A DNA stretch of 64,000 nucleotides from Archivesica marissinica (Eukaryota > Mollusca > Bivalvia > Venerida > Vesicomyidae), in contig CM026403.1 of NCBI GenBank assembly GCA_014843695.1, forward strand, positions 10,595,611-10,659,610. Reading direction: 5' to 3'. Below the pieces are notes generated by a model, which saw nothing but the letters and a program-made list of their open reading frames with translations, was not told where the DNA came from and searched no databases. Shown in pieces: positions 3,701 through 50,100 of this stretch (its first letter is position 1; each line of letters opens with the position of its first letter). The position numbers and the translations under genes are program-made.

Positions 3701-6700
3701 TAACACAGGTTTGACTGTATTGCTAGTATAGTGTCATAGATTCCATTGGCTGGCTGCTTAACACAGGTTTGACTGTATTGCTAGTATAGTGTCATAGATT
3801 CCATTGGCTGGCTGCTTAACACAGGTTTGACTGTATTGCTAGTATAGTGTCATAGATTCCATTGGCTGGCTGCTTAACACAGGTTTGACTGTATTGCTAG
3901 TATAGTGTCATAGATTCCATTGGCTGGCTGCTTAAGACAGGTTTGACTGTATTGCTAGTATAGTGTCATAGATTCCATTGGCTGGCTGCTTAACACAGGT
4001 TTGACTGTATTGCTAGTATAGTGTCATAGATTCCATTGGCTGGCTGCTTAACACAGGTTTGACTGTATTGCTAGTATAGTGTCATAGATTCCATTGGCTG
4101 GCTGCTTAAGACAGGTTTGACTGTATTGCTAGTATAGTGTCATAGATTCCATTGGCTGGCTGCTTAACACAGGTTTGACTGTATTGCTAGTATAGTGTCA
4201 TAGATTCCATTGGCTGGCTGCTTAACACAGGTTTGACTGTATTGCTAGTATAGTGTCATAGATTCCATTGGCTGGCTGCTTAACACAGGTTTGACTGTAT
4301 TGCTAGTATAGTGTCATAGATTCCATTGGCTGGCTGCTTAACACAGGTTTGACTGTATTGCTAGTATAGTGTCATAGATTCCATTGGCTGGCTGCTTAAC
4401 ACAGGTTTGACTGTATTGCTAGTATAGTGTCATAGATTCCATTGGCTGGCTGCTTAACACAGGTTTGACTGTATTGCTAGTATAGTGTCATAGATTCCAT
4501 TGGCTGGCTGCTTAACACAGGTTTGACTGTATTGCTAGTATAGTGTCATAGATTCCATTGGCTGGCTGCTTAACACAGGTTTGACTGTATTGCTAGTATA
4601 GTGTCATAGATTCCATTGGCTGGCTGCTTAACACAGGTATTGCTAGTATAGTGTCATAGATTCCATTGGCTGGCTGCTTAACACAGGTATTGCTAGTATA
4701 GTGTCATAGATTCCATTGGCTGGCTGCTTAACACAGGTATTGCTAGTATAGTGTCATAGATTCCATTGGCTGGCTGCTTAACACAGGTTTGACTGTATTG
4801 CTAGTATAGTGTCATAGATTCCATTGGCTGGCTGCTTAACACAGGTTTGACTGTATTGCTAGTATAGTGTCATAGATTCCATTGGCTGGCTGCTTAACAC
4901 AGGTTTGACTGTATTGCTAGTATAGTGTCATAGATTCCATTGGCTGGCTGCTTAAGACAGGTTTGACTGTATTGCTAGTATAGTGTCATAGATTCCATTG
5001 GCTGGCTGCTTAAGACAGGTTTGACTGTATTGCTAGTATAGTGTCATAGATTCCATTGGCTGGCTGCTTAAGACAGGTTTGACTGTATTGCTAGTATAGT
5101 GTCATAGATTCCATTGGCTGGCTGCTTAAGACAGGTTTGACTGTATTGCTAGTATAGTGTCATAGATTCCATTGGCTGGCTGCTTAAGACAGGTTTGACT
5201 GTATTGCTAGTATAGTGTCATAGATTCCATTGGCTGGCTGCTTAAGACAGGTTTGACTGTATTGCTAGTATAGTGTCATAGATTCCATTGGCTGGCTGCT
5301 TAAGACAGGTTTGACTGTATTGCTAGTATAGTGTCATAGATTCCATTGGCTGGCTGCTTAAGACAGGTTTGACTGTATTGCTAGTATAGTGTCATAGATT
5401 CCATTGGCTGGCTGCTTAAGACAGGTTTGACTGTATTGCTAGTATAGTGTCATAGATTCTTTCTACAATGTGTAGTAGTACAGTATATTTCAATGTTCAT
5501 TGATACAAACATACATCTTCAATAAAATGATTTTCCCAAGTCCAATAGGACAACAGTGTTGTGCATAATAGTGGCATTTTTTTTATTGGTATTATTTTGA
5601 AGTGATGGTACTTACTTAAGGACGGTAGTCCTCTATGCTGCCGTGTATAGACATATCGACCAATAACAACAACCAACACATAGAATACATACAGCAGGAT
5701 AAAACCTGTAAATATAAATAGCATAAGCTGATATAGGATAAACCCTGTAAATATAAATAGCATAAGCTGACATAGGATAAATCCTGTATATACAGACAGC
5801 GTAAGATGACATTGGATAAACTCTGTAAATACACACTGCATAAAATGGCATAGGATAAACCCTGTAAATACACACTACATAAGAAGGCATAGGATAAACC
5901 CTGTAAATACACACTGCATAAAATGGCATAGGATAAACCCTGTAAATATAAATAGCATAAGCTGACATAGGATAAACCCTGTAAATACACACTGCATAAG
6001 ATGACATAGGATAAATCCCGTATATACAGACAGCGTAAGATGACATTGGATAAACTCTGTAAATACACACTGCATAAGAAGGCATAGGATAAACCCTGTA
6101 AATACACACTGCATAAGATGACATAGGATAAACCCTGTAAATACACACTGCATAAGATGACATAGGATAAACCCTGTAAATACACACTGCATAAGAAGGC
6201 ATAGGATAAACCCTGTAAATACACACTGCATAATATGATAATTATAGGATAAACCCTGTAAATACACAATGCATAAGATGACATAGATAGGATAAACCCT
6301 GTAAATACACACTGCATAATATGATAATTATAGGATAAACCCTGTAAATACACAATGCATAATATGATAATTATAGGATAAACCCTGTAAATACACAATG
6401 CATAAGATGACATAGGATAAACCCTGTAAATACACACTGCATAAGAAGGCATAGGATAAACCCTGTAAATACACACTGCATAAGATGACATAGGATAAAC
6501 CCTGTAAATACACACTGCATAAGAAGACATAGGATAAACCCTGTAAATACACATGAGGAGAAGAATTATATAAGACTCTGTCTTCCATTCTAATCCTGTT
6601 TCTGTATTCTGATTATGAGTGGTGTATGCATTGTTCAATATGTATTATATTGGGAAATAAAATATGTTTAAACTAAATACACATGACATAGGATAAACCC

Positions 6701-9700
6701 TGTAAATACGCACTGCATAAGATGACATAGGATAAACCCTGTAAATACACACTGCATAAGAAGGCATAGGATAAACCCTGTAAATACACACTGCATAATA
6801 TGACATAGGATAATCCCTGTAAATACACACTGCATAAGATGACATAGGATAAACCCTGTAAATACACACTGCATAATATGATATAGGATAAACCCTGTAA
6901 ATACACACTGCATAAGATGACATAGGATAAACCCTGTAAATACACACTGCATAAGATGACATAGGATAATCCCTGTAAATACACACTGCATAATATGATA
7001 ATTATAGGATAAACCCTGTAAATACACACTGCATAAGAAGGCATAGGATAAACCCTGTAAATACACACTGCATAAGATGGAATAGGATAAACCCTGTAAA
7101 TACACACTGCACAAGAAGGTATAGGATAAACTCTGTAAATACACACTGTATAAGATGACATAGGATAAACCCTGTAAATACACACTGCATAAGAAGGCAT
7201 AGGATAAATCATGTAAATACACACTGCATAAGAAGGCATAGGATAAACCCTGTAAATACACACTGCATGAAATGACATAGGATAAACCCTGTAAATACAC
7301 ACTGCATAAGATGACATAGGATAAACCCTGTAAATACACACTGCATAAGAAGGCATAGGATAAATCATGTAAATACACACTGCATAGGAAGGCATAGGAT
7401 AAACCCTGTAAATACACACTGCATAAAATGACATAGGATAAACCCTGTAAATACACACTGCATAAGATGACATAGGATAAACCATGTAAATACACATGAC
7501 ATAGGATAAACCCTGTAAATACACACTGCATAAGAAGGCATAGGATAAATCATGTAAATACACACTGTATAAGATGACATAGGATAAACCCTGTAAATAC
7601 ACACTGTATAAGATGACATAGGATAAACCCTGTAAATACACACTGTATAAGATGACATAGGATAAACCCTGTAAATACACACTGTATAAGATGACATAGG
7701 ATAAACCCTGTAAATACACACTGCATAAGAAGGCATAGGATAAATCATGTAAATACACACTGCATAGGAAGGCATAGGATAAACCCTGTAAATACACACT
7801 GCATAAAATGACATAGGATAAACCCTGTAAATACACACTGCATAAGAAGGCATAGGATAAACCATGTAAATACACACTACATAGGAAGGCATAGGATAAA
7901 CCCTGTAAATACACACTGCATAAAATGGCATGGGATAAACTCTGTAAATACCCATTGCTACTATGTACTGTGAACATACCCATTGCATCTATGTACTGTG
8001 AACATACCCATTGCATATATGTACTGTGAACATACCCATTGCTTCTATGTACTGTGAACATACCTATTGCTTCTATGTACTGTGAACATACCCATTGCTT
8101 CTATGTACTGTGAACATACCTATTGCATCTATGTACTGTGAACATACCCATTGCTACTATGTACTGTGAACATACCTATTGCTTATATGTACTGTGAACA
8201 TACCTATTGCTTCTATGTACTGTGAACATATCTATTGCTTATATGTACTGTGAACATACCCATTGCTTCTATGTACTGTGAACATACCTATTGCTTCTAT
8301 GTACTGTGAACATACCCATTGCTTCTATGTACTGTGAACATACCTATTGCATATATGTACTGTGAACATACCCATTGCTACTATGTACTGTGAACATACC
8401 CATTGCTACTATGTACTGTGAACATACCCATTGCTACTATGTACTGTGAACATACCTATTGCTTCTATGTACTGTGAACATACCTATTGCTTCTATGTAC
8501 TGTGAACATACCTATTGCTTCTATGTACTGTGAACATACCCATTGCTTCTATGTACTGTGAACATACCCATTGCTTCTATGTACTGTGAACATACCCATT
8601 GCTTTTATGTACTGTGAACATACCTATTGCATCTATGTACTGTGAACATACCCATTGCTACTATGTACTGTGAACATACCCATTGCTTCTATGTACTGTG
8701 AACATACCCATTGCTACTATGTACTGTGAACATACCCATTGCTACTATGTACTGTGAACATACCTATTGCTTCTATGTACTGTAAACATACCTATTGCTT
8801 CTATGTACTGTGAACATACCTATTGCTTCTATGTACTGTGAACATACCCATTGCTTCTATGTACTGTGAACATACCTATTGCTTCTATGTACTGTGAACA
8901 TACCTATTGCTTCTATGTACTGTGAACATACCCATTGCTTCTATGTACTGTGAACATACCTATTGCTTCTATGTACTGTGAACATACCCATTGCTTCTAT
9001 GTACTGTGAACATACCCATTGCTACTATGTACTGTGAACATACCCATTGCTACTATGTACTGTGAACATACCCATTGCTACTATGTACTGTGAACATACC
9101 TATTGCTTCTATGTACTGTGAACATACCTATTGCTTCTATGTACTGTGAACATACCTATTGCTTCTATGTACTGTGAACATACCCATTGCTTCTATGTAC
9201 TGTGAACATACCTATTGCTTCTATGTACTGTGAACATACCCATTGCTTCTATGTACTGTGAACATACCCATTGCTACTATGTACTGTGAACATACCCATT
9301 GCTACTATGTACTGTGAACATACCCATTGCTACTATGTACTGTGAACATACCTATTGCTTCTATGTACTGTGAACATACCTATTGCTTCTATGTACTGTG
9401 AACATACCTATTGCTTCTATGTACTGTGAACATACCCATTGCTTCTATGTACTGTGAACATACCTATTGCTTCTATGTACTGTGAACATACCTATTGCTT
9501 CTATGTACTGTGAACATACCCATTGCTTCTATGTACTGTGAACATACTATTGCTTCTATGTACTGTGAACATACCCATTGCTTCTATGTACTGTGAACAT
9601 ACCCATTGCTTCTATGTACTGTGAACATACCCATTGCTTCTATGTACTGTGAACATACCCATTGCTTCTATGTACTGTGAACATACCTATTGCTTCTATG

Positions 9701-12700
9701 TACTGTGAACATACCCATTGCTTCTATGTACTGTGAACATACCCATTGCTTCTATGTACTGTGAACATACCATTGCTTCTATGTACTGTGAACATACCCA
9801 TTGCTTCTATGTACTGTGAACATACCCATTGCTTCTATGTACTGTGAACATACCATTGCTTCTATGTACTGTGAACATACATTGCTTCTATGTACTGTGA
9901 ACATACCATTGCTTCTATGTACTGTGAACATACCCATTGCTTCTATGTACTGTGAACATACCCATTGCTTCTATGTACTGTGAACATACCCATTGCTTCT
10001 ATGTACTGTGAACATACCTATTGCTTCTATGTACTGTGAACATACCCATTGCTTCTATGTACTGTGAACATACCCATTGCTTCTATGTACTGTGAACATA
10101 CCCATTGCTTCTATGTACTGTGAACATACCCATTGCTTCTATGTACTGTGAACATACCCATTGCTTCTATGTACTGTGAACATACCCATTGCTTCTATGT
10201 TTGTTATCTTTTGATCCCATAGGACAGTGAACGTCCAGAACACAGCTGCCAGGTAGAAAATAATGTCACGCAGAAAGGGACGTTGCATGGCATCAAATGG
10301 ACAAATGATGGCTATAAACCCGGCTACTACGGTTGTAACAAATATACCCGCACCTGCAAACACAAATAAATGGAATCAGTACGGGAAAACTCGGCATGTG
10401 TGGCTTCTTTGGTCCAGTGGCAGAGAATTTGATTTTGGAATGGAGGGGTCACGGATTTGGAATGGAGGGGTCATGGATTTGGAATCGAGGGGTCATGGAT
10501 TTAGAATCGAGGGGTCACGGATTTGGAATCGAGGGATCATGGGTTTGGAATCGAGGGGTCACGGATTTGGAATCGAGGGGTCATGGATTTGGAATCGAGG
10601 GGTCATGGATTTGGAATCGAGGGGTTACGGATTTGGAATCGAGGGGTCACGGGCTTGGTACTCAGTCGCAGCACGAAAGTAGTGTCATTGAGCAAGGCAC
10701 CTCACACACATTGCTTAGTACTGGTCAACACCGCTAAGCCTGCCTAGGAAAACATGTCTAGGTCTGCACAAGGGGTTTGACATAATTGGTAAAAATAAAA
10801 TATGTGTACAAACAGTAGTATTGATATACCTGTACATTTGTACTATAAGCCATCTAAGATCATTGGAAGTCTGTATTGATATACCTGTACATTTCTGGTT
10901 TGATTTAATTTCATTTACATGAAGTATTCCCCTTCCAGGGCCCCAGAGTACTGTTCCCCTTGAGAGGCTCCATGTTTAAAATGATCAATATTCACAAAAA
11001 TACAAGTTCCAATTGAGAACTGTGAGGTTACCTTCTTTGTTCTATTTAATTATTTTAAAGTCCTCCATTAGAGTTGTTGCTCCTGTGTTCTAGAAGTGGT
11101 TCTCATGTATTTCATTTAAAGCGACACTACATCGGTGAAAACGCAAATGTCTGAAGAATGTAATTTGCTATTATATGGTATAATTGTTTTCCAAATATTT
11201 GCCTCAAAAACTGAGTATTTCAACAAATAAACCAACGTCGTATACGCGGTTTGTTGACATAACAAAATAATGTAAATAGGGTTGACATTCATGCGTATTA
11301 CAGCGCGTCTATCCTGAATAATACGAGGTATGGTACATATTTACTGTGATATAGCACATGTATGCCTATGCATATTTATTTGTAGACTAATCTTAATTAA
11401 ATTATCTCTAAACGAAAGTATCGCGTGTTTAGTATTGACTTCAATGACAACAAACGTCAGGAGCCTGGATGACCGTTATATGAAATCCTATTTTCACGGA
11501 TGAAAGTTTGTATACCACAAAAACACTGTTTATTGATTCAATGTTAGTGTTCAAATGTATTCAGAAGAATTTGTAGTAACAATTCATCTATATGTGAAAA
11601 AAATGCACTTTATTTGCTTTTTTCGATGTAATGTCGCTTTAAAGAAACATGTATATAAAACTATATACACATTACTACTATATCTTTTATGTCTTACAGC
11701 AATGTCTCTAAAATATTCAAAGTAAAAAAAATGTTTAATCCCAAAATAACATTTCCAAGATGTCAAGTTCTACAGTTTGTTGATCTTTAACGCACAGTCT
11801 AGAATAAATTGATTATTTATATATTTTAGATATTTACCAAACAGTGCTCCAATAGCAAGTCCAGCATCCCCGTTCTTGGCATTCCCGATGGCTGCGATAG
11901 CAGAGAATATGTCGGGTGCTCCATTGCCAAACGCTAGAAATGTTACCCCTTATCATGGGTTAAGAAAAACAAAATGAAGGATTATAAAAATACTGACCAA
12001 TAAACAGACAGTTTAACCATTAGCTAATTGCAGGCAAAATGAGCAGGATTTTCAATGAATAACAAGGGATTTTCAGTGAATAACAAGGGATTTTCAATGA
12101 ATAACAAGGTATTTTCAATGAATAATGAGGGCTTTTCAGTGAATAACGAGGGATTTTCAATGAATAACGAGAGATTTTCAATGCTTAACGAGGGATTTTC
12201 AGTGAATAACAAGGGATTTTCAATGAATAGCAAGGGATTTTCAGCGAATAACAAGGGAGTTTCAATGAATAACAAGGGATTTTCATTGAATAACAAGGGA
12301 TTTTGAATGAATAACAAGGGATTTTGAGCAATGAATAACATTGGATTTTCAATAAGGGATTTTTCAGTGAATAACAAGGCATTTTCAATGAATAACAAGA
12401 ATGATTTTGTGAATAACAAGGTTTATTTTTCTGCAACTCACTAGAGATATTTTAGTGAACCACGCAGTGAAAATTTATTAACAGAGGTCATGAACATATC
12501 ATAATCTCTGATGCGTATCCCCCCACAGGCCAAGTTCATGTTATGAATTCACTAGTGAAATTACAAGTGAAATTGCTTCATCATTTCACACATGGACAGG
12601 CACCTGGGTAGAACCACTAACCTTCTGCAATCAAGCTGCTTAGGTTACCAACACCCACCAGTAAGACTCGAAGTGGTAATCAGAGGTGACCCCTAACACA

Positions 12701-15700
12701 GGTTTGACTGTAGATACTTTAACCTTCATGTATGGAAAGGATATTGCTACATTATGGCTGAGCCTCAGTGTATCGGAAATGACGGCCAATGATGGACAGA
12801 AGCTGAAATATACAAGCAAAACATCGTGCATGTCATGATATGTGTTATTTGATTGGTTGGAAGTCGTGATAGCGCAGTGGATGCGTATTCGCTTCAGATG
12901 GGAAAGGTCCGGAGTTCGAGCCCCGCTGTCGCCGTTACGATTGTGCCCTTACAAGGTATTTAAATTCCACGTTGCCTCTTCTCTCTCCCTTGTGGCGATG
13001 GATTCGATCAGGAATGAGGTCTCGAGAGTGATTAATATAAGTTGTAAGAACTTGTGTCGCAATCAAGCTAAACATAATTTTGCATAAACTAAATTTGATT
13101 GGTCAAAAGTGTCGTGTTGATTTACTAAAACAATCTTAGATGAGCAACCTAAATATGTCATAACAAATGTCAATAATTTTCGTACAAAGAATTCATAGTT
13201 TAACCTTTTCTTTCATAGAGATTTAGGTTAATATACTACTATATCTCCATACAAATGACAGCCATTTAGCTATCATGCAATGAATAACTAGTCGCCATAT
13301 CTATCCCACCATCATAGATATTACTGGGACTACATGAGATTTAGGTTAATATACTAGTATATCTCCATACAAACGACAGCCATTTAGCTATCATGCAGTG
13401 GATAAGTAGTCGCCATATCTATCCCACCTCCATAGATATTACTGGGACTACATGAGATTTAGGTTAATATACTATCATATCTGCATACAACCGACAGCCA
13501 TTTAGCTATCATGCAGTGGATAAGTAGTCGCCATATCTATCTATCTATCTATCTACCTCCATAGATATTACTGGGATTACATGAGATTCTGGCATTTATT
13601 ATGAACATTGGTTTGGCTACTACATTGTCAAATGTATGTCGTATTGATAATGGCGTCAAGAGGTGCTTCCAGGCGCGTAGCTGGGCGTACGTAAATTTTG
13701 ACAGGTCGGAAAAATGAAAATGCGAAAAATGCAATAAAAAATGAAGCCTAAGGGGGGTGAGGGGTCAAATGTTTATTATCTTCAACAGTTATAACATATA
13801 TCTACAATTATGTGACACGACTGTTCGATATCTAGAGCCGTCCAAAGCAACACGTGGTTACGGTACTCGAAGTCTGCCGGAGGAGTATACTGCGCCCCCT
13901 GTCACATTTTCGCACATGTAGAGAAGAAAGCCTTCGTATCGGTAGCAGCGACCGACCCCAGCAACCTCGGCAAAATGATTGCTAACCACGGAAAGAGTGA
14001 TATGCATATCAGCTCTACGGAGGCTGCGGAAAACTTCAAATATGTAATGACGGGTGACAAAAAGGATATCATGAATTCAATCTCCACATCATATAACACG
14101 CTAGTGGAAAAAAATCGCAAAATTCTCAAAGCTATTGTAGACACGATCATACTGTGTGGAAAGCAACACGTTGCCTTACGAGGTCACGACGACAAAGATA
14201 GCAACTTCATAGCTTTACTAGAGTATCAATCGAAATATAACACAGTCCTACGTGATCACTTGGAAACTGGGGACCCAAACACCAAATATACTTCGCCCGA
14301 AATCCAGAACGAACTGATCGATATCTGTGGTGAACAAATCAAATCATCTATTGTAAAAAAGTGTAACAGTGCCCCATTCTTTGGCTTCATAGCAGACGAG
14401 GCCACCGACTCTTCCACAATTGAGCAGATGGCTCTGTTTGCGATATTTCGACTACGATACACTAGCCGTACGTGAAGATTTCATTACGTTCGCCGAATGC
14501 GACGCCACGACTGGTGAATCACTTTCCGATGCATTTCTGAAGAACTTGAGACTTGCAGGCGTAGACGTAGATAAAATGAGGGGCCAGGGATATGATGGCG
14601 CTTCGAACATGTCCGGGAAGTTCCGTGGGGTACAAGCACAAATTAGACAGTCGCTGCCCAAAGCAGTGTACACTCATTGCAAAGCGCATTGCTTAAATTT
14701 AGCTATAGTACATGCGTCGGAAGAGCCGTTGGCCAGGAATATGATAAACACAGTTCAAGAAATTGCGTTTTCCTTTAATTATTCCGCGAAGCGACTATTG
14801 CGATACAAGGAAACGCTAGCGAATGATGCCGGAAGTAAAATTGCCATGGAGCACAGAACAAATTACAATCCTTATGCGAAACAAGATGGGCAGCAAGAGC
14901 GGACGCGCTGAACACCTTCCAGTCTTCATACATAACGGTCGTGGAGGCACTGGCTGACCTCTGTCTACACTATGGCGATAGCAAGGCCGGTGCATACAGA
15001 ATAGCCATCATGCAGTTCGGGTTCATCGTGTGTCTTGTAGCTATAGAACATGTGCTCTCGGGATTAATGCCACTGTCCAAAATGTTACAAAACAAGTCAT
15101 GTGACCTTATTGAAGCTGTCAAAGAAGCTAACGTCATCACTCGCCAAGTTACGGATGAGCGAAATGATCCAGCTGTGTGGGATGTCCTGTACGCGAAGGC
15201 TGTTGAAATGGCAGAGGCTGTTGGTGTGCAACCATCACGACCTAGAGCCCCGAATAATCGGCGTCAGCAACATCGTCAAAATGCTCCGGCAGATACCGTT
15301 TCTGACTATTGGAAGAGAAACATGTACTTACCTTTCGTCGATCATTTGGTAACAGAACTATCTGATCGTCTTATTGAGGATGGCGACAGATTCAATGCCC
15401 AATTCCTGATACCAGGCGATATAGGTAATCTTACCGAGGATATAATTGCGTCCATATATAAAACATTTGAGGAGGATCTCCCCGCGGTTGATTCAGAAAG
15501 ATCGTTCAGCAGCATGCGCCGCTTGAAAACGTACCTTCGGTCAACAATGACAACAGGCAGATTGTCGTGCCTAGGACTGATGAACATTCACAGGGACAAA
15601 GAGATAAACACTGACATGGTTATCGATGTCTTCGCTAGACGGAAGGAGCGGCGCCTTGCCTTTGTGTTTCGTGTCTAAGTAATAGTTAGAGCGCTGTACG

Positions 15701-31972: not shown

Positions 31973-32456
<484 letters not shown>

Positions 32457-32822: not shown

Positions 32823-32918
32823 GGTCAAATAATAAGAAATCTGTCGCTACATTTCTGGGATTACACACATCTTGTTATTTGAGGATTCAATTATTCTTTT
32901 AACTGCATACTGTACACA

Positions 32919-34178
32919 ATGGGTGACAGAGTCACGATTGCGAAGTTCTTGGGTCAGGATAACATGGAACTTGCGGGTCTGGCAAGAAACCTTGTGGAAT
33001 TAGAAGACCTAGAGGAACAAGAAAGGAGGGATAATAATAGACAAAGGAGATGGTGGACCAGGGACTGGCTGCTGCGTAGACCAGTCCACGGTCAGTATGA
33101 GGCTCTGATGGCAGAGCTTCAAGTGGAGGACCCCCAGGCTTTCCAGCAATTTCTGCGAGTAGATGTGGCCACATTCCATGATATCCTGGCCAGGATTGAG
33201 GAGATGATCACCAAACAGACAACCACTTTCAGGTGTCCCATCTCTCCTGCGCTAAAGCTGGCGTTCACCCTCCGGTATCTGGCCACTGGAAACTACTACC
33301 GAGACCTCCGGTTCGGCTTCAGGGTAGCTCACAACACCATGTCTGGTCTCATTGTTGATGTGTGTCAGGCTCTGGTTGATGTCCTGGAACCAGCGTTTGT
33401 CAAGCTTCCCACAGAAGCTGAAGAGTGGCAGCAGGTGGCTCGGGCCTTTCAGCAGAAGTGGCAGTTCCCACACACCCTTGGTGCTCTTGATGGGAAGCAC
33501 ATCCGAATCAAGAAGCCGCCCCACTCAGGTTCTATCTACCACAACTATAAAGGGTTTGACTCCATTGTACTCATGGCCTTGGTGGATGCTGAGTACCGCT
33601 TCCTGTGGACACAAATTGGAGACGCCGGCTCTAGTTCGGATGGCCAGATATGGAACCATTGTGACGTTCGACAAGCTCTGCATGATGGTGTCCTGGGTGT
33701 CCCAGATGCAGATCCGCTACCAGGGGATGATGTAAACACCCCCTACTACATCATAGGGGATGGTGCATTCGCCATGAGGAAATGGCTGATGAAACCCTTT
33801 CCTCGACGCGGTTTGGACGATGGCCAGCAGGTCTACAACTACCAGCTGTCCAGTGCACGTCGTGTGGTGGAGAATGCCTTTGGCATACTTGCAAACCGCT
33901 TCCGCTGCCTCCTTTCCACCCTCCAGGTCCATGTGGATACTGCAACCCTCGTTGTGAGATCGTGCGTCTCCCTGCACAACTACTTGAAGGTGAGGAACCC
34001 TGCTGCAGACCAGCATCTTCGGGACCAAGAGCACAACGTCGTTGATGGTGCGTGGCGGGCCAATGCCAACCTGTTGGATCTCACTCAACCACAGTGTGGG
34101 AACTACGACAGTAGGGAAGCAAAACTGCAGAGGCTGTACCTCAAGCACTACCTGACGTCACCAGCTGGCTCGGTCTAA
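32919..34178 (+). CDS. Harbinger DDE transposase (HARBI1-like), 419 aa
   Basis: Cuts and joins DNA during transposition of its element. Residues 44-54 RWWTRDWLLRR and the GQYEALMAEL...FLRVD region are the usual N-terminal part with a helix-turn-helix-like segment near 105-150. The DDE_4 nuclease core spans about 186-345: first Asp at 191 (LGALDGKHIRIKKP), second at 281 (IIGDGAFAMRKWLMKPF) and Glu at 318 (RRVVENAFGILANRF). Length fits the family (350-450). Single exon with a good ATG and no internal stop. Ends within a CTAACC repeat, overlapping the antisense partner gene by 21 bp. Confidence 0.93.
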   Translation: MGDRVTIAKFLGQDNMELAGLARNLVELEDLEEQERRDNNRQRRWWTRDWLLRRPVHGQYEALMAELQVEDPQAFQQFLRVDVATFHDILARIEEMITKQTTTFRCPISPALKLAFTLRYLATGNYYRDLRFGFRVAHNTMSGLIVDVCQALVDVLEPAFVKLPTEAEEWQQVARAFQQKWQFPHTLGALDGKHIRIKKPPHSGSIYHNYKGFDSIVLMALVDAEYRFLWTQIGDAGSSSDGQIWNHCDVRQALHDGVLGVPDADPLPGDDVNTPYYIIGDGAFAMRKWLMKPFPRRGLDDGQQVYNYQLSSARRVVENAFGILANRFRCLLSTLQVHVDTATLVVRSCVSLHNYLKVRNPAADQHLRDQEHNVVDGAWRANANLLDLTQPQCGNYDSREAKLQRLYLKHYLTSPAGSV

Positions 34179-37602: not shown

Positions 37603-37949
37603 AAAATGACAATAAATGATATTATCATGGTGTTTGATTTTATGTTGAGGTATATTTGAGCAAAGAACACATTACATAAAAGTAGTTCTATAATAATCTA
37701 CCAGTAACATACAGTGACCTAGTCACCATTTAATATCATATTATAAATATATTATATACACGCTTTATAAATCAACTGGGCGAACTCTTCGAACATGAGA
37801 ATGATCCAGAATGATCTTTTCCAATTATTTACTTAAAACAAGTTTCAACAATTCAGTCAATTTTGGTTAGTAAGTAGGCCCATTCAGTAGCTCAATGACA
37901 TATCTGGAGGTTCATGGTATCAACAATCTTATTTATAGCAATATATCTC
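37603..37949. other. Intergenic linker
   Basis: AT-rich; nothing recognised. Confidence 0.5.
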
Positions 37950-39470
37950 TCATACAAACCATGTAATTACATGTACATCTCTCATACAAGCCATGTAAAT
38001 ACATGTAAATCTCTCATACAAACCATACAACACATAAGCAACTCTCATACAAGCCATGTAAATACACGTGTAACTCTCATACAAACCATTAAATACACGT
38101 GCAACTCTCATACAAACCATTAAATACACGTGTAACTCTCATACAAACCATTAAATACACGTGCAACTCTCATACAAACCATTAAATACACGTGTAACTC
38201 TCATACAAACCATTAAATACACGTGCAACTCTCATACAAACCATTAAATACACGTGTAACTCTCATACAAACCATTAAATACACGTGCAACTCTCATACA
38301 AACCATTAAATACACGTGTAACTCTCATACAAACCATTAAATACACGTGCAACTCTCATACAAACCATTAAATACACGTGTAACTCTCATACAAACCATT
38401 AAATACACGTGCAACTCTCATACAAACCATTAAATACACGTGTAACTCTCATACAAACCATTAAATACACGTGCAACTCTCATACAAACCATTAAATACA
38501 CGTGTAACTCTCATACAAACCATTAAATACACGTGCAACTCTCATACAAACCATTAAATACACGTGTAACTCTCATACAAACCATTAAATACACGTGCAA
38601 CTCTCATACAAGCCACGTAAATACACGTGCAACTCGCATACACACCACGTAAATACACGTGCAACTCGCATACACACCACGTAAATACACGTGTAACTCT
38701 CATACAAACCATTAAATACACGTGCAACTCTCATACAAACCATATAAATACACGTGCAACTCTCATACAAGCCATATAAATACACGTGCAACTCTCATAC
38801 AAACCATGTAAATACACGTGTACCTCTCATTCAAACCATTAAATACACATGTAACTCTCATACAAAACCATTAAATACACGTGCAACTCGCATACACACC
38901 ACGTAAATACACGTGTAACTCGCATAATAACCATTAAATACACGTACAATTCTCATACAAACCATGTAAATGCACGTGCAATTCTCATACAAACCATGTA
39001 GATACATGTGTAACTCGCATAATAACCATTAAATACACGTACAATTCTCATACAAACCATGTAAATACACGTGCAACTCTCATACAAACCACGTAAATAC
39101 ACGTGCAGTTCTCATACAAACCACGTAAATACACGTGCAATTATCATACAAACCATGTAAATGCACGTGCAGTTCTCATACAAACCATGTAAATGCACGT
39201 GCAATTCTCATACAAACCATGTAAATGCACGTGCAATTCTCATACAAACCATGTAAATGCACGTGCAATTCTCATACAAACCATGTAAATGCACGTGCAA
39301 TTCTCATACAAACCATGTAAATGCACGTGCAACTCTCATACAAGCCACGTAAATACACGTGCAACTCTCATACAAGCCACGTAAATACACGTGCAACTCT
39401 CATCCAAACCACGTAAATACACGTGCAACTCTCATACAAACCACGTAAATACACGTGCAACTCTCATCCA
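37950..39470. repeat. 31-32-bp minisatellite with an E-box (CACGTG) in most units, about 48 copies
   Basis: Unit ACACGTGCAACTCTCATACA + AACCATTAAAT. From about 38080 to 38620 units alternate strictly between CACGTGCAACT and CACGTGTAACT, so the real repeat there is a 62-bp dimer. The right third has ACCATGTAAATGCACGTG and ACCACGTAAATACACGTG variants. It lies about 1.5-3 kb downstream of the SLC13 stop codon. Confidence 0.93.
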
Positions 39471-39737
39471 AATTCGCATGTTACCAATGTAAACATAAAC
39501 AAATCAACATCCAGATTAGCCGTATCACTATGGATACAACTTGACAGCTGCTGGACATATCAAACTTGAGCTGAATACGTAAAACACAAACAGAATTCGT
39601 AGATGTAAGAAACACATTATGAGGTACTGGACACAATCTGTGAATCATATATACATTTGTTATACAAACAACTCCTTTTCTCCCTACACCATACGGCGAA
39701 ATATATGCCTATGAATTCGGTACACATGTATTACGTA

Positions 39738-39884: not shown

Positions 39885-41024
39885 TCACGATGACACCAGC
39901 AGGTTTACATAGTCACGTTAGTCTTGGTGACACCAGCAGGTTTACATAGTCACGTTAGTCTTGGTGACACCAGCAGGTTTGCATGGTCACGTTAGTCTTG
40001 ATGACACCAGCAGGTTTACATAGTCACGTTAGTCTTGATGACACCAGCAGGTTTACATGGTCGCGTTAGTCTTGATGACACCAGCAGGTTTGCATGGTCG
40101 CGTTAGTCTTGATGACACCAGCAGGTTTACATAGTCACGTTAGTCTTGATGACATCAGCAGGTTTACATGGTCACGTTAGTCTTGATGACATCAGCAGGT
40201 TTACATAGTCGCGTTAGTCTTGATGACATCAGCAGGTTTACATAGTCACGTTAGTCTTGATGACATCAGCAGGTTTACATAGTCACGTTAGTCTTGATGA
40301 CATCAGCAGGTTTACATAGTCGCGTTAGTCTTGATGACACCAGCAGGTTTACATAGTCACGTTAGTCTTGGTGACATCAGCAGGTTTACATGGTCGCGTT
40401 AGTCTTGATGACACCAGCAGGTTTACATAGTCGCGTTAGTCTTGATGACACCAGCAGGTTTACATAGTCGCGTTAGTCTTGGTGACATCAGCAGGTTTAC
40501 ATAGTCGCGTTAGTCTTGGTGACATCAGCAGGTTTACATAGTCGCGTTAGTCTTGATGACATCAGCAGGTTTGCATAGTCGCGTTAGTCTTGGTGACATC
40601 AGCAGGTTTACATAGTCGCGTTAGTCTTGATGACATCAGCAGGTTTGCATAGTCGCGTTAGTCTTGGTGACATCAGCAGGTTTACACAGTCGCGTTAGTC
40701 TTGATGACATCAGCAGGTTTACATAGTCACATTAGTCTTGATGACATCAGCAGGTTTACATAGTCGCGTTAGTCTTGATGACACCAGCAGGTTTACATGG
40801 TCACATTAGTCTTGATGACATCAGCAGGTTTGCATAGTCGCGTTAGTCTTCATGACACCAGCAGGTTTACAGGTTTGCATAGAAGCTTTGGTCTTGATGA
40901 CGTCAGCATGTTTGCATGGTCGCGTTAGTCTTTATGACATCAGTAGGTTTACATGGTCACGTTAGTCTTGATGACATCAGCAGGTTTACATGATGGCCGC
41001 GTTTCTCTTGATACACCAGCAGGT
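39885..41024 (-). repeat. 37-bp minisatellite made of copies of the SLC13 stop-codon region (about 30 copies)
   Basis: On the minus strand each unit reads AAGACTAACGCGACTATGTAA + ACCTGCTGATGTCATC, the same as the gene's last codons (AAG ACT AAC GCG ACC GTG TAA) followed by ACCTGCTGG. The terminal coding copy joins the array directly. Units differ mainly at TAGTCGCG/TAGTCACG and GACACC/GACATC. Confidence 0.93.
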
Positions 41025-41153
41025 TTACACGGTCGCGTTAGTCTTGAAGACCTCGGGGAACGTACCCAGGTCAAACATCGACATTCCCCAAGTATTAATG
41101 GCGAATGTCAGGATGAATACCGCGACAATATTGATTGGAAGTCCCGCCAAGAC
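41025..41153 (-). CDS. SLC13 last exon (C-terminus)
   Basis: 43 codons including [45 protein letters not shown]. Matches the final TM helix and the INTWG motif. The exon is squeezed between two arrays: a 66-bp array abutting its acceptor and the 37-bp array that starts from its own stop codon. Confidence 0.92.
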   Translation of the reverse strand, partial: VLAGLPINIVAVFILTFAINTWGMSMFDLGTFPEVFKTNATV

Positions 41154-44100
41154 CTATAATGTAACAACAAGGGCGTCGATGCATATAATGTACCGAAAAG
41201 GACCTGGAGACACCATAAATTATAATGTAACAATAAGGACGTCGATGCAGATAATGTACCGCAAAGGACTTGGAGACAACATAAATTATAATGTAACAAC
41301 AAGGACGTCGACGCATATAATGTACCGCAAAGGACTTGGAGACAACATAAATTATAATGCAACAATAAGGACGTCGATGCATATAATGTACCGAAAAGGA
41401 CTTGGAGACAACATAAATTATAATGTAGCAACAAGGACGTCGACGCATATAATGTAACGGAAAGGACTTGGAGACATCATAAATTATAATATAGCAATAC
41501 GTACGTCGATTTAATATAATTATAATGTTACAACATATACGTCGATACAACATAATTATAATGTCACAAAACTTACGCCGAGACAACATATAATGTCACA
41601 CAACCTATATTGGCAGGTATAGGAAATGGGTGTGTCTTTAAATTAAGTAATGTAGTCAGCTATGTGAATTTAATATACTTATTAAATCTGTTTTGAAAAA
41701 GTGTATAATTTACGAAATTCGTGTCCCGATATTACATGTATATACTTTTAGCAAGTGACATGATCAAGGATCGCAAGATATTAGAGCGTTTACTCAATGA
41801 ATGCCCTACTCACATGACACATATATAATGACATTGACGACAACAATCATTGTACATTCAACAGCTATATTGATGATGACGCTGGCGATGTAGACAATGA
41901 GCTTGAAGACAATGGGTACACTGAATATATAAGTGCATACTTACGAAGTGAAACAATACTACACTAGAGGACATAGAAAACGCACACCTGCATTATATGA
42001 TTATTATTACATGAACACGAAATACGAAGGATTCAATCAAAGATATATCACATCTTTATTGTAAAACACAAACTGAACAACTACAAATCTTCCAAAACGC
42101 TTAAAACTATGTATTTATATAGTTAACCGACGTATGCGTTTTCTATGTCCTCTAGTATATAGAAACGTTGCCAATGATGACACTTCAAACGACGTCGTCC
42201 AATATTACATACAATTGAAAGGCGTTGAGTCAGTAACATGTAAACGTTTCGCAAATGTACACATATACTTTAGTCTCAACATTTCAATCGTATCTATTCA
42301 AAAAATGGAAGAATTGTGAAAATCGGACAATAAATTCAGAAATTACAAACATGTTTGTATTTCCTTCGACACTGTGACACCATTATACTCACTAGGTCAC
42401 ACAATCAAGGTCAAGGTTAGACGGACATGTAAACCCGAATATCAATATGATTATAATGGAATAATGTAAATTGTTGGGTAGAACCACCGAGCGCTTGCAA
42501 TCCCGTTGGATATCTTCATCACATTAAATAATTCGAAATTCTAGTGGGATTCAAATCTAAAGATTCGAGGGAGAGTAATCTGATGACAATGACCATTACC
42601 ATCCAGCCATAGAGACCGGTTCAGCAACTATAAAATATACATACCATATCCGGAATAGTGAGATATCCCGTAGAGAAGACGATGGCGTTCGGTGGTGTTG
42701 CCACGGGTAACATGAAGGCGAATGAACACGCGATGGTTGATGACATCATCAGGTATGTCGGGTGGATTTGTGTTTGTAGTGCCTATTCATAATACAATAC
42801 AGTGTCTTGGAATATGTATATCAATATACAATATAGAAATAAAGGGAATTTACTGCCTTTTGCTGGAGCTTCTTGCATTCTTCGACCTTAGCTTATATAA
42901 TGGTGAGAACCAACTATATCATGGCATATCAGTCAACATGTTGGTGCAATTTCCCAATCATACGGAAATACTTGTGGAAGTCGTGATAGCGCAGTGGTCC
43001 GGAGTTCGAGCCCCACTGGAGCCGTTACGATTGTGCCCTTAGGCAAGGCATTTAAATTCCACATTGCCTCTTCTCTCTCCCTCGTGGCGATGGATTCCAT
43101 CAGGAATGAGGTCTCGAGAGTGATTATATAAGTTGAAATAACTTGTTTCGCAATCGAGCTAAAAAAAAATTGTATATATAAAAAAATATACTAAATTCCA
43201 ACAACCAATAGTTAAGAGATAAAGGTGGCGGAGAAGCTGTTCAATGTTCTTATAGTCGAATTACAAGTATTGTACAATGAACCAAATAAACAACTTTGTT
43301 TCCTTTAAGTTTATTTATCATCGCTACCGGTTGACCATATGAGCGACGCCCCCTGAAGAGATTGGTCATTTTATATTTTGGAGGATAGAGACAGAGATCC
43401 GTTCCAGAATCTTCTCTTGTTCTTTTACTTGCACGGTGTAAAGCACCGACACGATACCTCGGTTTAGCTTGTCACCCGAAAGACTATGATATGAGTCTTT
43501 TTAGTATGGTACAGCGGGGGATCGAACCTGCGACCACTGGCTTACATGTTCAGTGCACGCGTGTGTTAAGCACTGTACCACTGATCCGCTACAGACAAAC
43601 AAATATTACATAGATATTCTTATGAGTGGTCATCCACCACTGAACATTTTAACTCTTTCACCGCCAATGTCGCATAAAAGCGACTTTGTAAAAAAGTAGA
43701 GAACCCGATCGGACAGAACAGAACATGTCGTCTGATCAGGCTATATGCTGATTGCTTTTCAGACAGTGGAGCTGAAGCACCTGTCCGAATAGCAAACAAC
43801 ATAGATCCTGATCAGACGCGGCGTTACGCCGCGACTGATCTGGATCTATGTTGTTTACACATGCTCTGAATTTAATCGGCGCTGAAAGAGTTAAGCACGT
43901 TATTGAAACAGTATCAAGATGGACAGGTAGATCTTTATTGCCAAGATGACAAATTTGACATCCGCGGTTCATCACAAGTACAAATAAGTCTGACAATCTA
44001 CTAACTATTTTCTGGGCGAATGGGAATTTGTGTGATAAGAATTACAGGTATGTGTTCGTATTGTAGGTATTAAAATTGTCCAATTGTTTTCAGGGAACTA

Positions 44101-47100
44101 GTTCCAAGCTTCCATTGGTGTGCGCATAGAAATACAGACATGGGCTGGAATCCAGAAATGGCCAGGTTAATCTATTTACGCATGCAGTTGAAATTCTGCA
44201 ACAATAATTGGTTTCCATGTGATTCGCGGATGTTCCATCATCATCAGCCTCCGTCCGTCTTATGAGACGATGGATTGCGCTCTTGTTGAGGAACATCTTC
44301 TGCGGTGACTGAGTAGGCCTATTCTTGAGTGGCAGTCTCTGTTGCAGTCATCGCAGGTGAAGATCGAGTCATCCAGTTTGGTTGATGCCTTTCGCTTCTG
44401 TCATTTCTGCTCACGAAGCCGAGTTCGCTCAGCCTCGGCTCGTCTGACCCCAGCTTTCACAACGTGTCTCCATGATGACCGGTTTGATGCTGATCCTCCC
44501 AAGACTCTATGTAGATTTGCGCTGAATGCATGCCCCTCTTACAAGCGTCCCTGTATCTTAGGTGGGGGCGACCAGTTGGACGTGATCCTTGGTCAAGTTG
44601 ACCGTACAGTAGATCTTTGGGGATGCGTCCTTTGTCCATGCGTCGGACATGACCTAGCCAGCGCAGGCGGCGTTCACTGAGCATTGCATAGATGGTTGTT
44701 GAACTCGCTCTGCTGAGGACCTCTGTATTGGTGACCCTATCTTCCCAAGTGATTCCCAAGATCTTGCGAAGGCACCTCATATGGTATGAGTTCAGCTTTG
44801 TCTCTTGTCTGGCATATGTCGTCCATGACTCGCTGCCGTAGAGGAGCGTGCTGAGTATTCCATCAGGGATGTGGTATATACTACATGTATTATGCTGGAC
44901 AGGGTTTCATGTTATTATCAACATGTTTGCATTTAATTACTAAAGTATGCACTTTATATACAGTCATTCAATACACTATCCGAGTGTGTATTATGCAGAG
45001 TAAATGTTCAATCGTCCTTCTATTAATAAATATTACATGTTACATTTTATGTTGATACAAATAATCAAGAATTCAATCGTATCAGATTGTTTGTCTCAAA
45101 AATTTCAATGTACTCGTTTCAACAATGATATGCTACATATGTTTGTTAATTTCTATTTATAAATATATTATACGTACCAACTGGGCAAGAATTGGCATGA
45201 GCAATGTGGCACTAGCGGTATTGCTCGTCACGTTGGTGGCGCCGGCAACGATCAGGCATATTAGCATATTCATAACCCACATGTCCATTTCTGCAAACAC
45301 TTTCAGCTCGTTACCGACGGACATAGAAAGTCCAGATGCCTGTAGTTTATAGGATATATAATGTATATGCCTCGTACACATGTTGGTAAGCACACCCAAT
45401 GATTAATTATGTTGTTTGTAAAATCGGTGTCTTAGTGGCCTGTGAATTCAATGTCAGTTACTCGTCACCATTGTTGGTTCGACTCACAATGGACTCGTTG
45501 AATTAGTTTAAGTGAGGAACATATCAAGTAGGCATCGGAAGGTCGGTGGTTCCACCAGGGTGCATATCCATGCTTGCGATTCTGCTTGAAGTGAAGGGGC
45601 ACCAGGGTCTTCCTCCACCAATAATAGCTGGAGCATTGCCATAAGTATGCCCTAAGCTATTTGTGCGATGAGAAAGGAAACTTTGTAAAAGCACAATCAA
45701 TATTGACATAGATCAGCGCCAATATTTAGATACAGCGCTTGGGCAGGACATACGTTAGACAGGTTGCGGATGGTGAGGACAGGACACACGTTAGACAGGT
45801 TGCGGATAGTGAAGGCAGGACATACGTTAGACAGGTTGCGGATAGTGAGGACAGGACATACGTTAGACAGGTTGCGGATAGTGAGGGCACGACATACGTT
45901 AGACAGGTTGCGGATAGTGAGGACAGGACATACGTTATACAGGTTGCGGATAGTGAGGGCAGGACATACGTTAGACAGGTTGCGGATAGTGAGGACAGGA
46001 CATACGTTAGACAGGTTGTGGATGGTGAGGGCAGGACATACGTTAGACAGGTTGCGGATGGTGAGGACAGGACATACGTTAGACAGGATGCGGATAGTGA
46101 GGACAGGACATACGTTAGACAGGTTGCGGATAGTGAGGACAGGACATACGTTAGACAGGTTGTGGATGGTGAGGGCAGGACATACGTTAGACAGGTTGCG
46201 GATGGTGAGGACAGGACATACGTTAGACAGGTTGCGGATAGTGAGGACAGGCCATACGTTAGACAGGTTGCGGGTAGTGAGGACAGGACATACGTTAGAC
46301 AGGTTGTGGATGGTGAGGGCAGGACATACGTTAGACAGGTTGCGGATGGTGAGGACAGGCCATACGTTAGACAGGTTGCGGATGGTGAGGGCAGGACATA
46401 CGTTAGACAGGTTGCGGATGGTGAGGGCAGGACATACGTTAGACAGGTTGCGGATGGTGAGGACAGGACATACGTTAGACAGGTTGCGGATGGTGAGGGC
46501 AGGACATACGTTAGACAGGTTGCGGATAGTGAGGGCAGGACATACGTTAGACAGGTTGTGGATAGTGAGGGCAGGACATACGTTAGACAGGTTGCGGATA
46601 GTGAGGACAGGACATACGTTTGACAGGTTGCGGATGGTGAGGACAGGACATACGTTAGACAGGTTGCGGATAGTGAGGACAGGACATACGTTTGACAGGT
46701 TGCGGATAGTGAGGGCAGGACATACGTTAGACAGGTTGTGGATAGTGAGGGCAGGACATACGTTAGACAGGTTGTGGATAGTGAGGGCAGGACATACGTT
46801 AGACAGGTTGTGGATAGTGAGGACAGGACATACGTTTGACAGGTTGCGGATGGTGAGGACAGGACATACGTTTGACAGGTTGCGGATGGTGAGGACAGGA
46901 CATACGTTAGACAGGTTGCGGATAGTGAGGACAGGACATACGTTAGACAGGTTGCGGATGGTGAGGACAGGACATACGTTAGACAGGTTGCGGATGGTGA
47001 GGACAGGACATACGTTAGACAGGTTGCGGATAGTAATGTAGTACAACGGATGCGGTAAAAATAATACATTACTTCACTGGCTTGAGCAATGGCGAATCCC

Positions 47101-50100
47101 CCACCTAGCAACACTATTACACCCCACGGTAGATTGCGTGACACTGAATTCCACTGTAAAATGGGTTTGTAAGATGGATTTTCTGTAAATAATAAAATAT
47201 GACTTGAAATAATACTAATTGCTTCATCCATCTGAGATACATATATTTATAATTATACCAGATTTAACTGGTATCAGGGAGTGCACAGTGGTTACTCACC
47301 GGAATAAGCAGTTTGAAGCTGAATTGCAATTAAATAGTTAATAAATAAAGTTAAAATGTACATGCACGTGTAGTATAGTTCAATCAAACCAAATGAGCTG
47401 GCTTTCTCCTCAATCCTACATGTATGTACAAACTATTTATACTTAGTTTATACAAATTTATTTTAGCTCGATTGCGAAACAAGTTCGTTCAACTTATATT
47501 AATCACTCTCGAGACCTCATGCCTGGTGGAATCCATCGCCATGAAGGAGAGAGAAGAGGCAATGTGGAATTTAAATACCTTGCCTAAGGGCACAATCGTA
47601 ACGGCTCCAGCGGGGCTCGAACTCCGGACCTTACCTGAAGCGAACGCGCATCCACTGCGCTATTACGACTATTTATACTTGACTATGTTTATTCAGAGAA
47701 ATAAATATTGATTAAACTAAGCCAACTTAATGACTGATATCAATTAGGGGTATGTAATCATTCGTGTAAAACACACAGGTGATTAGGGTATGGACCGTGT
47801 TCTAGTGAGCGGTTCTGTTCCAAAATAATGTGATACACCATAAACGTTTAAACTTTATTTATTTTACAACGATTGCGAAGCAAGTTTTAACAACTTATAT
47901 TAATCACTCTCGTTGGCGCGGATGAAAGCGTATGTATGATCATTCGTGTGGGAGGAAACCGGAGTATCCGGAGAAAACCCACCTGTTCGATCTGGCGACC
48001 ACCATAGTAGTCCGAGGATCGAACCCGGGTTGCATTGGTGAAAAGCGAGCGCGCTAACCACTGCGCTAATCGGACAGCCTAAGATTTACCATAGGATTTA
48101 CCATAGGATTTACCATAGGATTGACACTATAACAATTGCAAGAAATACTTTGGCAACAGAATCATTCACCTGCCACTATGAAATATTGTCGCAGATCCCA
48201 AGCGTGTGTGCAAATTCTAGCTGAACAAAACTCAATTGACCTTTCAACAATGTTTCTTTAACTATGCATAGGTTAATGGTCGGTCAAGTTTAAGATTAGT
48301 TTGTATGCACTCGAAGCAATAGCCTTTCGGTTCAAGTTTATTTACATTGCCCTTCTCCGTGCATATTGTGGATTTTGAAAAATAAAAATTAACAGTAAAC
48401 TTAAATCAGTTTGGATCCAGAGTGTTGATGATTGAATGCTTACTGCTTCTGAAGCAAATATATTGAACTTATATCATGATATACGGTGAAACATTGAACA
48501 CACTGTGCATGCGATTTTCAAAGTATGTTCCCAGAGTGCAACTGGTGACCTAGCTATTATCAAAAGAGCCGATCAAAAGGCTATTAAGAGGCCATAGTGT
48601 ATTATACTTATGGTATACTTATATTATACGAATGGGACACTATGGCCTCTTAAAAACCTGCTACAAATGGCGATATACATTTATATGACTTGATTTACAC
48701 AGTCTGGTCACAGCTGAACATCTTCCTCCGTGGCCATACTATTATAATTTAGCTAGTAAACCTCTATCGATTATCGATCAACGTGTAATGCTACATTAGC
48801 ATGGGAACAGGCGTCGATATATTTTACCTGGTCAGTCAAATAAATATATTTTAACACCGATACTATTAATTGGACCGTATTGATTTTCTGATCATGTCAT
48901 TTTGCCAGAAGTTAAAAAGTGAAAAATCGACAGACTGGAACCCAGGCTATTGCTACATCTACATGAATCTACGGAACCTAGAGTCCATCAACTTGAAGAT
49001 AGCAATTGAATACTATCAATTAGTCGCTGCAATATGTCAGACACACGCACGAATGGAACACGCTCGCAGCAATACTTCGTGTATACATGTGAGTCAAAAT
49101 ATAAAGTAAAGTAAAGTATTTGTTTATTTATTATAGTGTCACTCCTATTTAAAGGGCCAGCCATTTCTGACTTATGAGACACCTCTTTTTATGAACATCA
49201 GTACTTTCCGTTTCCTATGCTTATATGCCAGGTGCCAGACTTTTAGGCAATCGGTAACTATTATTTAACTAGCTGGCGGCTCACCAACCGGCCATATCAG
49301 AACGAACCCCTGACGAGATTCGAACCTTCGACTCCCCGCTTCGTAGGCGGACGCCTTAACCACTAGGCCATGGAGACGATATATATTACAGTTAGATGCT
49401 ATATTCAACGATGTAGCATAAGTGTGGTGCCTCCGTTGTCGAGTTGTCGCTGAGTTCAAATCATGTGACCATCATCGCTGTTGGTTCTGTGCTTGCAATA
49501 CTGTTCGGAGGGTCATCCGGGGTCGGTCATCCTCCACCAATAATAGCTGGAGAGTCGCCATGTGATCTAAGCTGCTGGTGCGACATTAAACGCCAAAACC
49601 AAACCAAACAAAAACGCATAATTCTGCTACACCAACATATAGGCTTGATTACCTTTGTCATTAGTAAGATAGAACACCTTTGGAACTTCTGATGGTAGGA
49701 GAAACAGAAGAACACTGAGTAGCATGCACGGTGTGGAATCTGATACGTAACTGAAAACAAAGATCACTGAGTAACATGCACGGTGTGGAATCTGATACGT
49801 AACTGAAAACAAAGATCACTGAGTAGCATGCACGGTGTGGAATCGGATACGTAGCAGAAAACAAAGAACACTGATTAACATGCACGGTGTGGAATCGGAT
49901 ACGTAGCAGAAAACAAAGAACACTGATTAACATGCACGGTGTGGAATCTGATACGTAGCTGAAAACAAAGATCACCGAGTAACATGCACGGTGTGGAATC
50001 TGATACGTAACTGAAAACCAAGAACATCGAGTAACATGCACGGTGTAGAATCTGATACGTAACTGAAAACAAAGAACACTGATTAACATGCACGGTGTTG

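Follow-up and report, generated by a model that had tools for sequence, protein, structure and literature searches.

An NCLX intron of the clam Archivesica marissinica built from tandem copies of its own two splice boundaries

In a 64,000-nt stretch of the genome assembly of the clam Archivesica marissinica (assembly size 1.537 Gb; C18:10595611-10659610, the window, whose positions are used throughout), intron 6 of the NCLX gene consists almost wholly of two abutting tandem arrays, one made of copies of its own donor boundary and the other of copies of its own acceptor boundary. We propose that this structure arose by local tandem duplication across the exon edges followed by growth of the arrays, and that the exon-proximal copy is used while the rest is spliced out as intron; we put the probability of this reading at roughly 0.8. 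Arrays of the same kind recur at splice sites of other genes in this genome, over donors more often than over acceptors. Minisatellites that duplicate exon/intron boundaries are known from amphioxus, where they are called 'mirages' (PMC3087553).

The two arrays of NCLX intron 6

The NCLX gene lies on the minus strand with its start codon at 19016 and exons 2 to 7 at 17692-17540, 16589-16537, 12802-12745, 11948-11838, 10353-10186 and 5705-5616. In a protein search, the closest named match of its product came from the venerid clam Mercenaria, at 85% identity. The features that make up the intron and its two edges are as follows (a slash marks a splice junction or, at the meeting point, the limits of a segment).

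10186-10353, minus strand: NCLX exon 6 (168 nt), last 15 nt inside the donor array; from splice motifs, Tandem Repeats Finder (TRF) and protein alignment
7948-10200, minus strand: donor array, 28-bp unit TACATAGAAGCAATGG/GTATGTTCACAG, about 80 copies; from TRF and unit-by-unit reading
7941-7952, minus strand: meeting point of the donor and acceptor arrays, ...AGCAATGG/GTATTTACAG/AGTTTATCC, also written AATGG/GTATTTACAG/AGTTTATCC, with a 4-nt microhomology, GTAT
6557-6673, no strand assigned: AT-rich insert of 117 nt in the acceptor array, bracketed by 13-nt direct repeats TCATGTGTATTTA (6544-6556 and 6674-6686)
5696-7958, minus strand: acceptor array, 39-bp unit with TATTTACAG/GGTTTATCCT, 57.7 copies by TRF; from TRF and unit-by-unit reading
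5616-5705, minus strand: NCLX exon 7 (90 nt), first 10 nt inside the acceptor array; from splice motifs, TRF and protein alignment

In the minus-strand sequence, the boundary at the end of exon 6 (10186) reads ...ACATAGAAGCAATGG/GTATGT and that at the start of exon 7 (5705) reads ...TTTACAG/GTTTTATCCT; the intron between them spans 5706-10185 (4480 bp). The exon 6/7 junction, EAMG/FILLYVFY, aligns without a gap to six bivalve NCLX proteins (including those of Mercenaria, Mya, Ruditapes, Dreissena and Mactra); this alignment supports the predicted edges of intron 6, and the conservation of the protein suggests that the exon-proximal sites are the ones used.

An earlier note on this DNA had described an intron almost entirely occupied by two abutting arrays, with about 80 copies of a 28-bp unit from its 5' end, about 57 copies of a 39-bp unit at its 3' end, a meeting point near 7945 and one small insertion (6553-6680). 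This description holds in each respect, as does its numbering of the flanking exons as 6 and 7 when counted from the start-codon exon at 19016. TRF reported 80.7 copies with 96% matches for the 28-bp array and 57.7 copies with 85% matches for the 39-bp array. Read singly, the donor array resolves into 80 units of GTATGTTCACAGTACATAGAAGCAATGG (75 of 28 nt, four of 27 and one of 26), and the acceptor array into 54 pieces around GGTTTATCCTATGTCATCTTATGCAGTGTGTATTTACAG, of which 47 measure 39 nt, five 43 nt, one 29 nt and one, holding the insert, 159 nt. No unique intron sequence remains between the two arrays. The 117-nt insert, which with its direct repeats accounts for the insertion of the earlier note, is retroposon-like and is the sole foreign piece seen in the intron.

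The outer ends of both arrays lie inside exons, the donor array reaching 15 nt into exon 6 and the acceptor array 10 nt into exon 7; the odds that 15 exon nucleotides match in register by chance are about 4^-15. An inserted satellite or transposon would have insertion junctions at its limits and no relation to the exons; flanking direct repeats occur at the 117-nt insert only. Because both arrays hold their own exon edge, their units differ and no insertion junction separates either array from its exon, the sequence supports amplification of each NCLX boundary in place rather than the landing of a foreign satellite in the intron, in agreement with the earlier note, which had argued that the two boundaries were amplified independently and that no random satellite was involved.

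The absence of unique sequence between the arrays would also fit a birth of intron 6 by tandem duplication of AG/GT segments, the Rogers-type gain that the amphioxus globin paper proposes as a route for mirages (PMC3087553). The two units speak against such an origin: they derive from opposite sides of the junction, and neither contains parts of both exons, as duplication within a continuous exon would give. We therefore attach little probability to it.

One further array resembles the acceptor unit. The 32-bp array at 37947-39472, located 1.5 kb past the stop codon of the neighboring SLC13 gene, has the core AAACC(A/C)TGTAAATACAC in common with the 39-bp unit, and in the T variant of that core 17 nt are identical between the two when compared by eye. 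Their alignment score of 37 is the strongest among 120 array pairs, against at most 23 in 200 shuffles.

Arrays across other exon edges

Boundary-spanning arrays were found at 20 of 223 sampled splice sites; of these 20 sites, 15 are donors (110 sampled) and 5 are acceptors (113 sampled; Fisher P = 0.019). The sample consists of exons with about 350 nt on each side from three families, CCT (PF00118, 40), adaptin (PF01602, 27) and MCM (PF00493, 20), together with NCLX and SLC13. Exon edges in the three families were set by the consensus close to profile matches, with several of them uncertain. The donors and acceptors spanned were 5/36 and 0/40 in CCT, 4/27 and 2/25 in adaptin, and 4/20 and 0/20 in MCM, for which more donors than acceptors had been predicted before the data were obtained. 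NCLX and SLC13 alone exhibit no donor excess (donors 2/27, acceptors 3/28), and without these two genes the counts are 13/83 donors versus 2/85 acceptors (Fisher P 0.0026). When an overlap of at least 6 nt of exon is required, 12 donors and 4 acceptors remain (Fisher P 0.039).

These counts were obtained as follows. For CCT, 40 of 57 matches were fetched and 36 donors used (three last exons have none, and L065 was unassignable); for adaptin, 27 of 29 matches (two long open frames excluded) and 25 acceptors (L108 and L113 dropped); for MCM, 20 of 23 matches (three from a tandem copy excluded). Visual inspection contributed two further NCLX donors and one further acceptor, for totals of 27 and 28, and the first SLC13 exon is absent from the count. 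Also kept out are the SLC13 paralogues that make up 37 of the 44 rows of the family listing (one of them a partial repeat copy) and L117, where by eye an MCM donor is duplicated with a 76-nt unit in two copies followed by a masked stretch. The donor edges of L053, L071, L077 and L079 were placed by eye. Rechecking distances gave overlaps of 35 nt at L053 (36 used), 4 at L079 (6 used) and 17 at L091 (18 used), and a separation of 40 nt at L077 (49 used); these corrections alter no spanning call. Three arrays close to donors were scored as non-spanning: 45744-47034, 38 nt from the donor at 47073; a 27-bp array 15 nt from the NCLX donor at -20160; and a 20-bp array 5 nt from the donor at 53905.

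The 15 spanning arrays beyond NCLX and SLC13 are spread over nine contigs (C1, C2, C5, C7, C8, C10, C11, C14 and C18) and bear the same relation to exon edges, which argues against arrays that were collapsed, expanded or misjoined during assembly; so do the ordered variants among the units and the insert with its direct repeats. The copy numbers of the near-identical arrays come from a single assembly, and one MCM locus contains a masked stretch, but an artefact as the source of the structure has scarcely any probability in our assessment.

SLC13 lies on the same strand upstream of NCLX; its last sense codon ends at 41028, and its exons extend to 62612 and further. The closest named match of its protein, assembled from the exons, is from Mercenaria at 71% identity. 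Four array features of the window lie at SLC13 edges.

60579-62504, minus strand: 66-bp array of 28.6 copies, the second donor mirage, which covers the donor of SLC13 exon 62497-62612 with an 8-nt overlap
49702-50478, minus strand: 52-bp array of 14.8 copies with a mostly exonic unit, the second acceptor mirage, located at the acceptor of SLC13 exon 49653-49750
41155-41590, minus strand: arrays of 66-bp and 36-bp units that stop 1 nt before the last SLC13 intron base (last exon from 41153); scored as non-spanning
39889-41051, minus strand: 37-bp array, 31.2 copies, beginning within the final 24 nt of SLC13 sense codons and covering the stop codon (41025-41027)

In the 66-bp donor array, copies 1 and 2 read GTACGT and the remaining 27 matched copies GGACGT; at the last SLC13 acceptor, TATAG stands beside TATAA in the adjacent copy of the 41155-41590 arrays. 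Within the window alone, 5 of 15 gene-territory arrays span an edge (four splice sites and one stop) versus 0.84 expected (P 8e-4), a post hoc and small comparison. Beyond the window, the NCLX exon at -15811 has its acceptor spanned by a 73-bp array of 60 copies. The NCLX stop codon is spanned by 45 copies of a 46-bp unit, as the SLC13 stop codon is by 31 copies of its 37-bp unit, so that an array covers the stop codon in two of nine last exons examined (NCLX, SLC13, three CCT and four SLC13 paralogues).

The SLC13 matches cluster at C18:10.70-11.09 Mb, with others on C7, C8, C11 and C19. A second locus, C18:10828578 (10.83 Mb), carries the same 66-bp array; the exon end and the first five units are identical, and the two copies diverge further in. 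The array resolves into 22 pieces in a 3-kb stretch (28.6 copies in the window) and into 18 at the other locus, possibly a paralogue or another haplotype. The paralogue row L046 has this array in common as well, and in the paralogue L034 (C18:10709366) a 108-bp array of 2.8 copies duplicates the exon end with its donor.

The position of arrays relative to the edges was compared with an expectation calculated from unit lengths on the assumption that seeding is uniform and that detection is equal across 100-200 nt; the flank of about 350 nt limits detection deeper in the intron. Among arrays whose near end lies across a donor or within 200 nt of it, 15 of 29 span the donor versus 4.7 expected (P 7e-6), and within 100 nt 15 of 25 versus 6.9 (P 5e-4). 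Acceptors have no such excess, with 5/32 versus 5.3 at 200 nt and 5/25 versus 7.3 at 100 nt. With both kinds of site pooled, 20 arrays span versus 10.0 expected at 200 nt (P 0.001) and versus 14.2 at 100 nt (P 0.048); the pooled comparison at 100 nt without NCLX and SLC13 gives 15 versus 10.5 (P 0.07). Acceptor arrays require no special process, and donor arrays exceed the uniform expectation.

This donor excess, with acceptors showing none, is what would be expected if duplication were targeted to 5' splice sites by a process linked to transcription or splicing (R-loops, or U1-linked pausing or nicking) instead of occurring at random followed by selection. Several observations weigh against targeting. 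First, donor arrays reach between 2 and 97 nt into the exon, and the breaks are therefore not at the junction itself. Second, the expectation presumes the uniform seeding and equal detection given above, and the pooled excess at 100 nt is only marginal. Third, the arrays over stop codons are inexplicable by any splicing mechanism. We consider targeting rather unlikely.

The window also contains a GACA array of about 121 copies with a 99% match (31974-32456) and an SLC13 GC donor at 54934 (minus strand, CAA/GCAAGT). Intron 4 of NCLX (11949-12744, minus strand) is presumably of the U12 type, judging from the consensus, with GCA/ATATCCTTTCC at its 5' end and TTTTCTTAACCCATGATAAG/GGG at its 3' end. 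Between NCLX and SLC13, the plus strand contains an open frame (32916-34172) with a DDE_Tnp_4 domain, which we take to be a Harbinger-type transposase.

Splice signals and divergence of the copies

The earlier note had also stated that the spliceosome faces dozens of 5' and 3' sites in this intron, which is true at the sequence level: the donor array contains 79 GTATGT words and the acceptor array 47 TATTTACAG words, the real sites included. The signal is intact in most copies (GT in 73 of 75 of the exon 6 donor and AG in 47 of 54 of the exon 7 acceptor), and it is kept in 58 of 59 copies at the NCLX exon at -15811. Among 16 arrays taken for scoring, with four MCM arrays left out, L071 yielded no matched copies, and the majority of copies retain GT or AG in 14 of the 15 scored arrays. 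Donors were scored with a human-type matrix, and acceptors with a crude pyrimidine score. The real exon 6 donor scores 5.9, and 27 of the 75 matched copies score higher (31 of the 79 GTATGT words); because of these stronger copies, the site used at the NCLX donor array is probably chosen by position. Two further ideas about the copies were examined and set aside. Inactivation of decoy sites is unsupported as a general rule save at the SLC13 62.5k array, and RNA pairing between the two arrays that would juxtapose the splice sites is not significant (duplex energy -71.3 versus a mean of -52.9, standard deviation 14.4 and minimum -84.4 in 50 shuffles). In a predicted fold of the exon 6 end plus one unit (7948-10200, minus strand), the donor TATGT pairs with a downstream ACATA, placing the donor in a small hairpin.

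Use of other copies would have different outcomes at the two arrays. None of the six inward shifts of the donor, by one to six units, escapes a premature stop, which falls in exon 7 after a shift by one unit and inside the array after the longer shifts. At the acceptor, an upstream shift of one to four units would lengthen the protein by 13-52 residues (for example GFILCQLMLFIFT) in an uninterrupted frame, and five to seven units lead to a stop. The 39-nt acceptor unit would thus allow for functional arrays, with alternative copies tuning NCLX output or adding hydrophobic blocks of 13 residues. We grant this very little probability. The stop appears at five units, the donor unit shifts the frame, and none of the six relatives has an insert at this junction. 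Moreover, the spanning arrays keep no reading frame, because their unit lengths modulo 3 are 0, 1 and 2 in seven, nine and four of the 20 arrays, and with only seven multiples of three the idea of selection for frame is unsupported.

The two arrays also differ in how divergence is distributed. In the donor array, 30 of 80 units are identical to the exon-adjacent unit, and differences from that first unit grow with distance, from a mean of 0.2 in units 1-10 to 1.2 in units 71-80 (Spearman 0.40, P 2.7e-4; block permutation P 0.0024). Amphioxus mirages are homogenized inside and less so at the edge; the edge of the acceptor array agrees with this, and the donor array is the opposite, being most uniform nearest the exon.

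Origin of the arrays and relation to known systems

Under local duplication and growth, the reading that we favor, a short segment (28 or 39 bp) straddling an exon edge would have been duplicated in tandem to give a minisatellite, which would then have grown via repeated unequal exchange or slippage, stretching the intron and leaving the coding exon unharmed. The exon-adjacent copy would be the working splice site; the remaining copies, most of them with GT or AG, would be removed within the intron because the spliceosome is proposed to take the site closest to the exon. A deletion between the arrays at the common GTAT would probably have removed the unique middle part of the former intron, and the same duplication process would recur elsewhere in the genome, yielding more donor than acceptor arrays. 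The donor bias may reflect the order of transcription: decoy donors are transcribed after the real one and would be harmless, and decoy acceptors are transcribed before it and would often be harmful.

Several points weigh against this reading. First, we infer the use of the exon-proximal sites from the encoded protein, and the proposed deletion of the middle is read from a microhomology of 4 nt. Second, a single growth model does not fit both arrays, because the exon-proximal acceptor units are the more divergent (nine units differ by 4.2 from the consensus versus 1.8 for the rest, 39-nt units only) and the whole acceptor array has no gradient (Spearman -0.12, P 0.43). Third, positional choice is not needed everywhere: the crude score ranks the real exon 7 acceptor above 52 of 54 copies, with 2 of 54 matching it, and the SLC13 array at 62497 keeps GT in 1 of 28 copies. 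At last, selection against decoy acceptors alone leaves the donor excess over the uniform expectation unexplained, and donors above that expectation therefore leave room for a donor-aimed process.

The clam arrays are best compared with the amphioxus mirages, known in Adh3, the globins BflGb6 and BflGb9, and PGBD5 (PMC3087553, PMC3902484); the PGBD5 paper describes like arrays in lancelet (PMC3902484). Both systems consist of minisatellite-like boundary copies on the donor or acceptor side, many with AG or GT; in amphioxus, cluster edges can escape homogenization and copy number differs between copies of a locus, and both may apply to the clam. The NCLX units likewise span an exon-intron boundary, taking in 15 nt from exon 6 and 10 nt from exon 7, and many, not all, keep the splice signal (73/75 GT, 47/54 AG). 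In mirages the mRNA is nevertheless spliced regularly, a trait on which, in the clam, the protein alignment across the exon 6/7 junction bears. The clam differs in being a bivalve and not a cephalochordate, in having tens of copies as opposed to the 3 and 6 repeats in the two haplotypes of the BflGb6 mirage (PMC3087553), in the amplification of both edges of one intron with almost nothing else left, in stop codons that are arrayed too, and in a counted splice-site sample with a donor excess. Judged by sequence, the clam arrays are a mirage-type structure in another phylum and not an amphioxus element, because the closest named proteins are from Mercenaria; among the listed matches, amphioxus NCLX proteins are only 58-62% identical to the clam protein.

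Two other systems are related. In human segmental duplications, exon-intron boundaries carry internal tandem repeats with units of about 30 bp and 4 copies on average (PMC2812944), and these are minisatellites of similar unit length at the same kind of site; half of them are located within coding exons, and those at boundaries reportedly give rise to new introns, whereas the clam arrays extend introns already present in conserved genes. Intron gain via tandem duplication of AG/GT segments (Rogers 1989, cited in PMC3087553) also involves splice signals in each copy, but in the clam existing edges were amplified, with no sign of a new intron. In the open-licence library searched, also for bivalves, Mercenaria and clams, we found no report of mirages beyond amphioxus among the entries listed; this does not establish absence from print. 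Mirages are known in amphioxus; new here are the other phylum, the larger arrays, the two edges of one intron and the stop codons.

A bolder interpretation, which we hold to be doubtful although conceivable, is that this bivalve lineage aims tandem duplication at 5' splice sites as a main route of intron growth, with about one seventh of sampled donors lying in an array of their own copies, introns such as NCLX intron 6 rebuilt from their own ends, and site choice there made by position only. More broadly, arrays at 20 of 223 splice sites of this clam suggest that introns may grow quite generally by the amplification of exon edges. The donor-acceptor asymmetry fits the idea that decoys after the real site are harmless and decoys before it are not, and makes this idea testable. 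The clam introns place equal donors or acceptors side by side by the tens and are natural constructs for testing how the spliceosome picks the exon-adjacent site.

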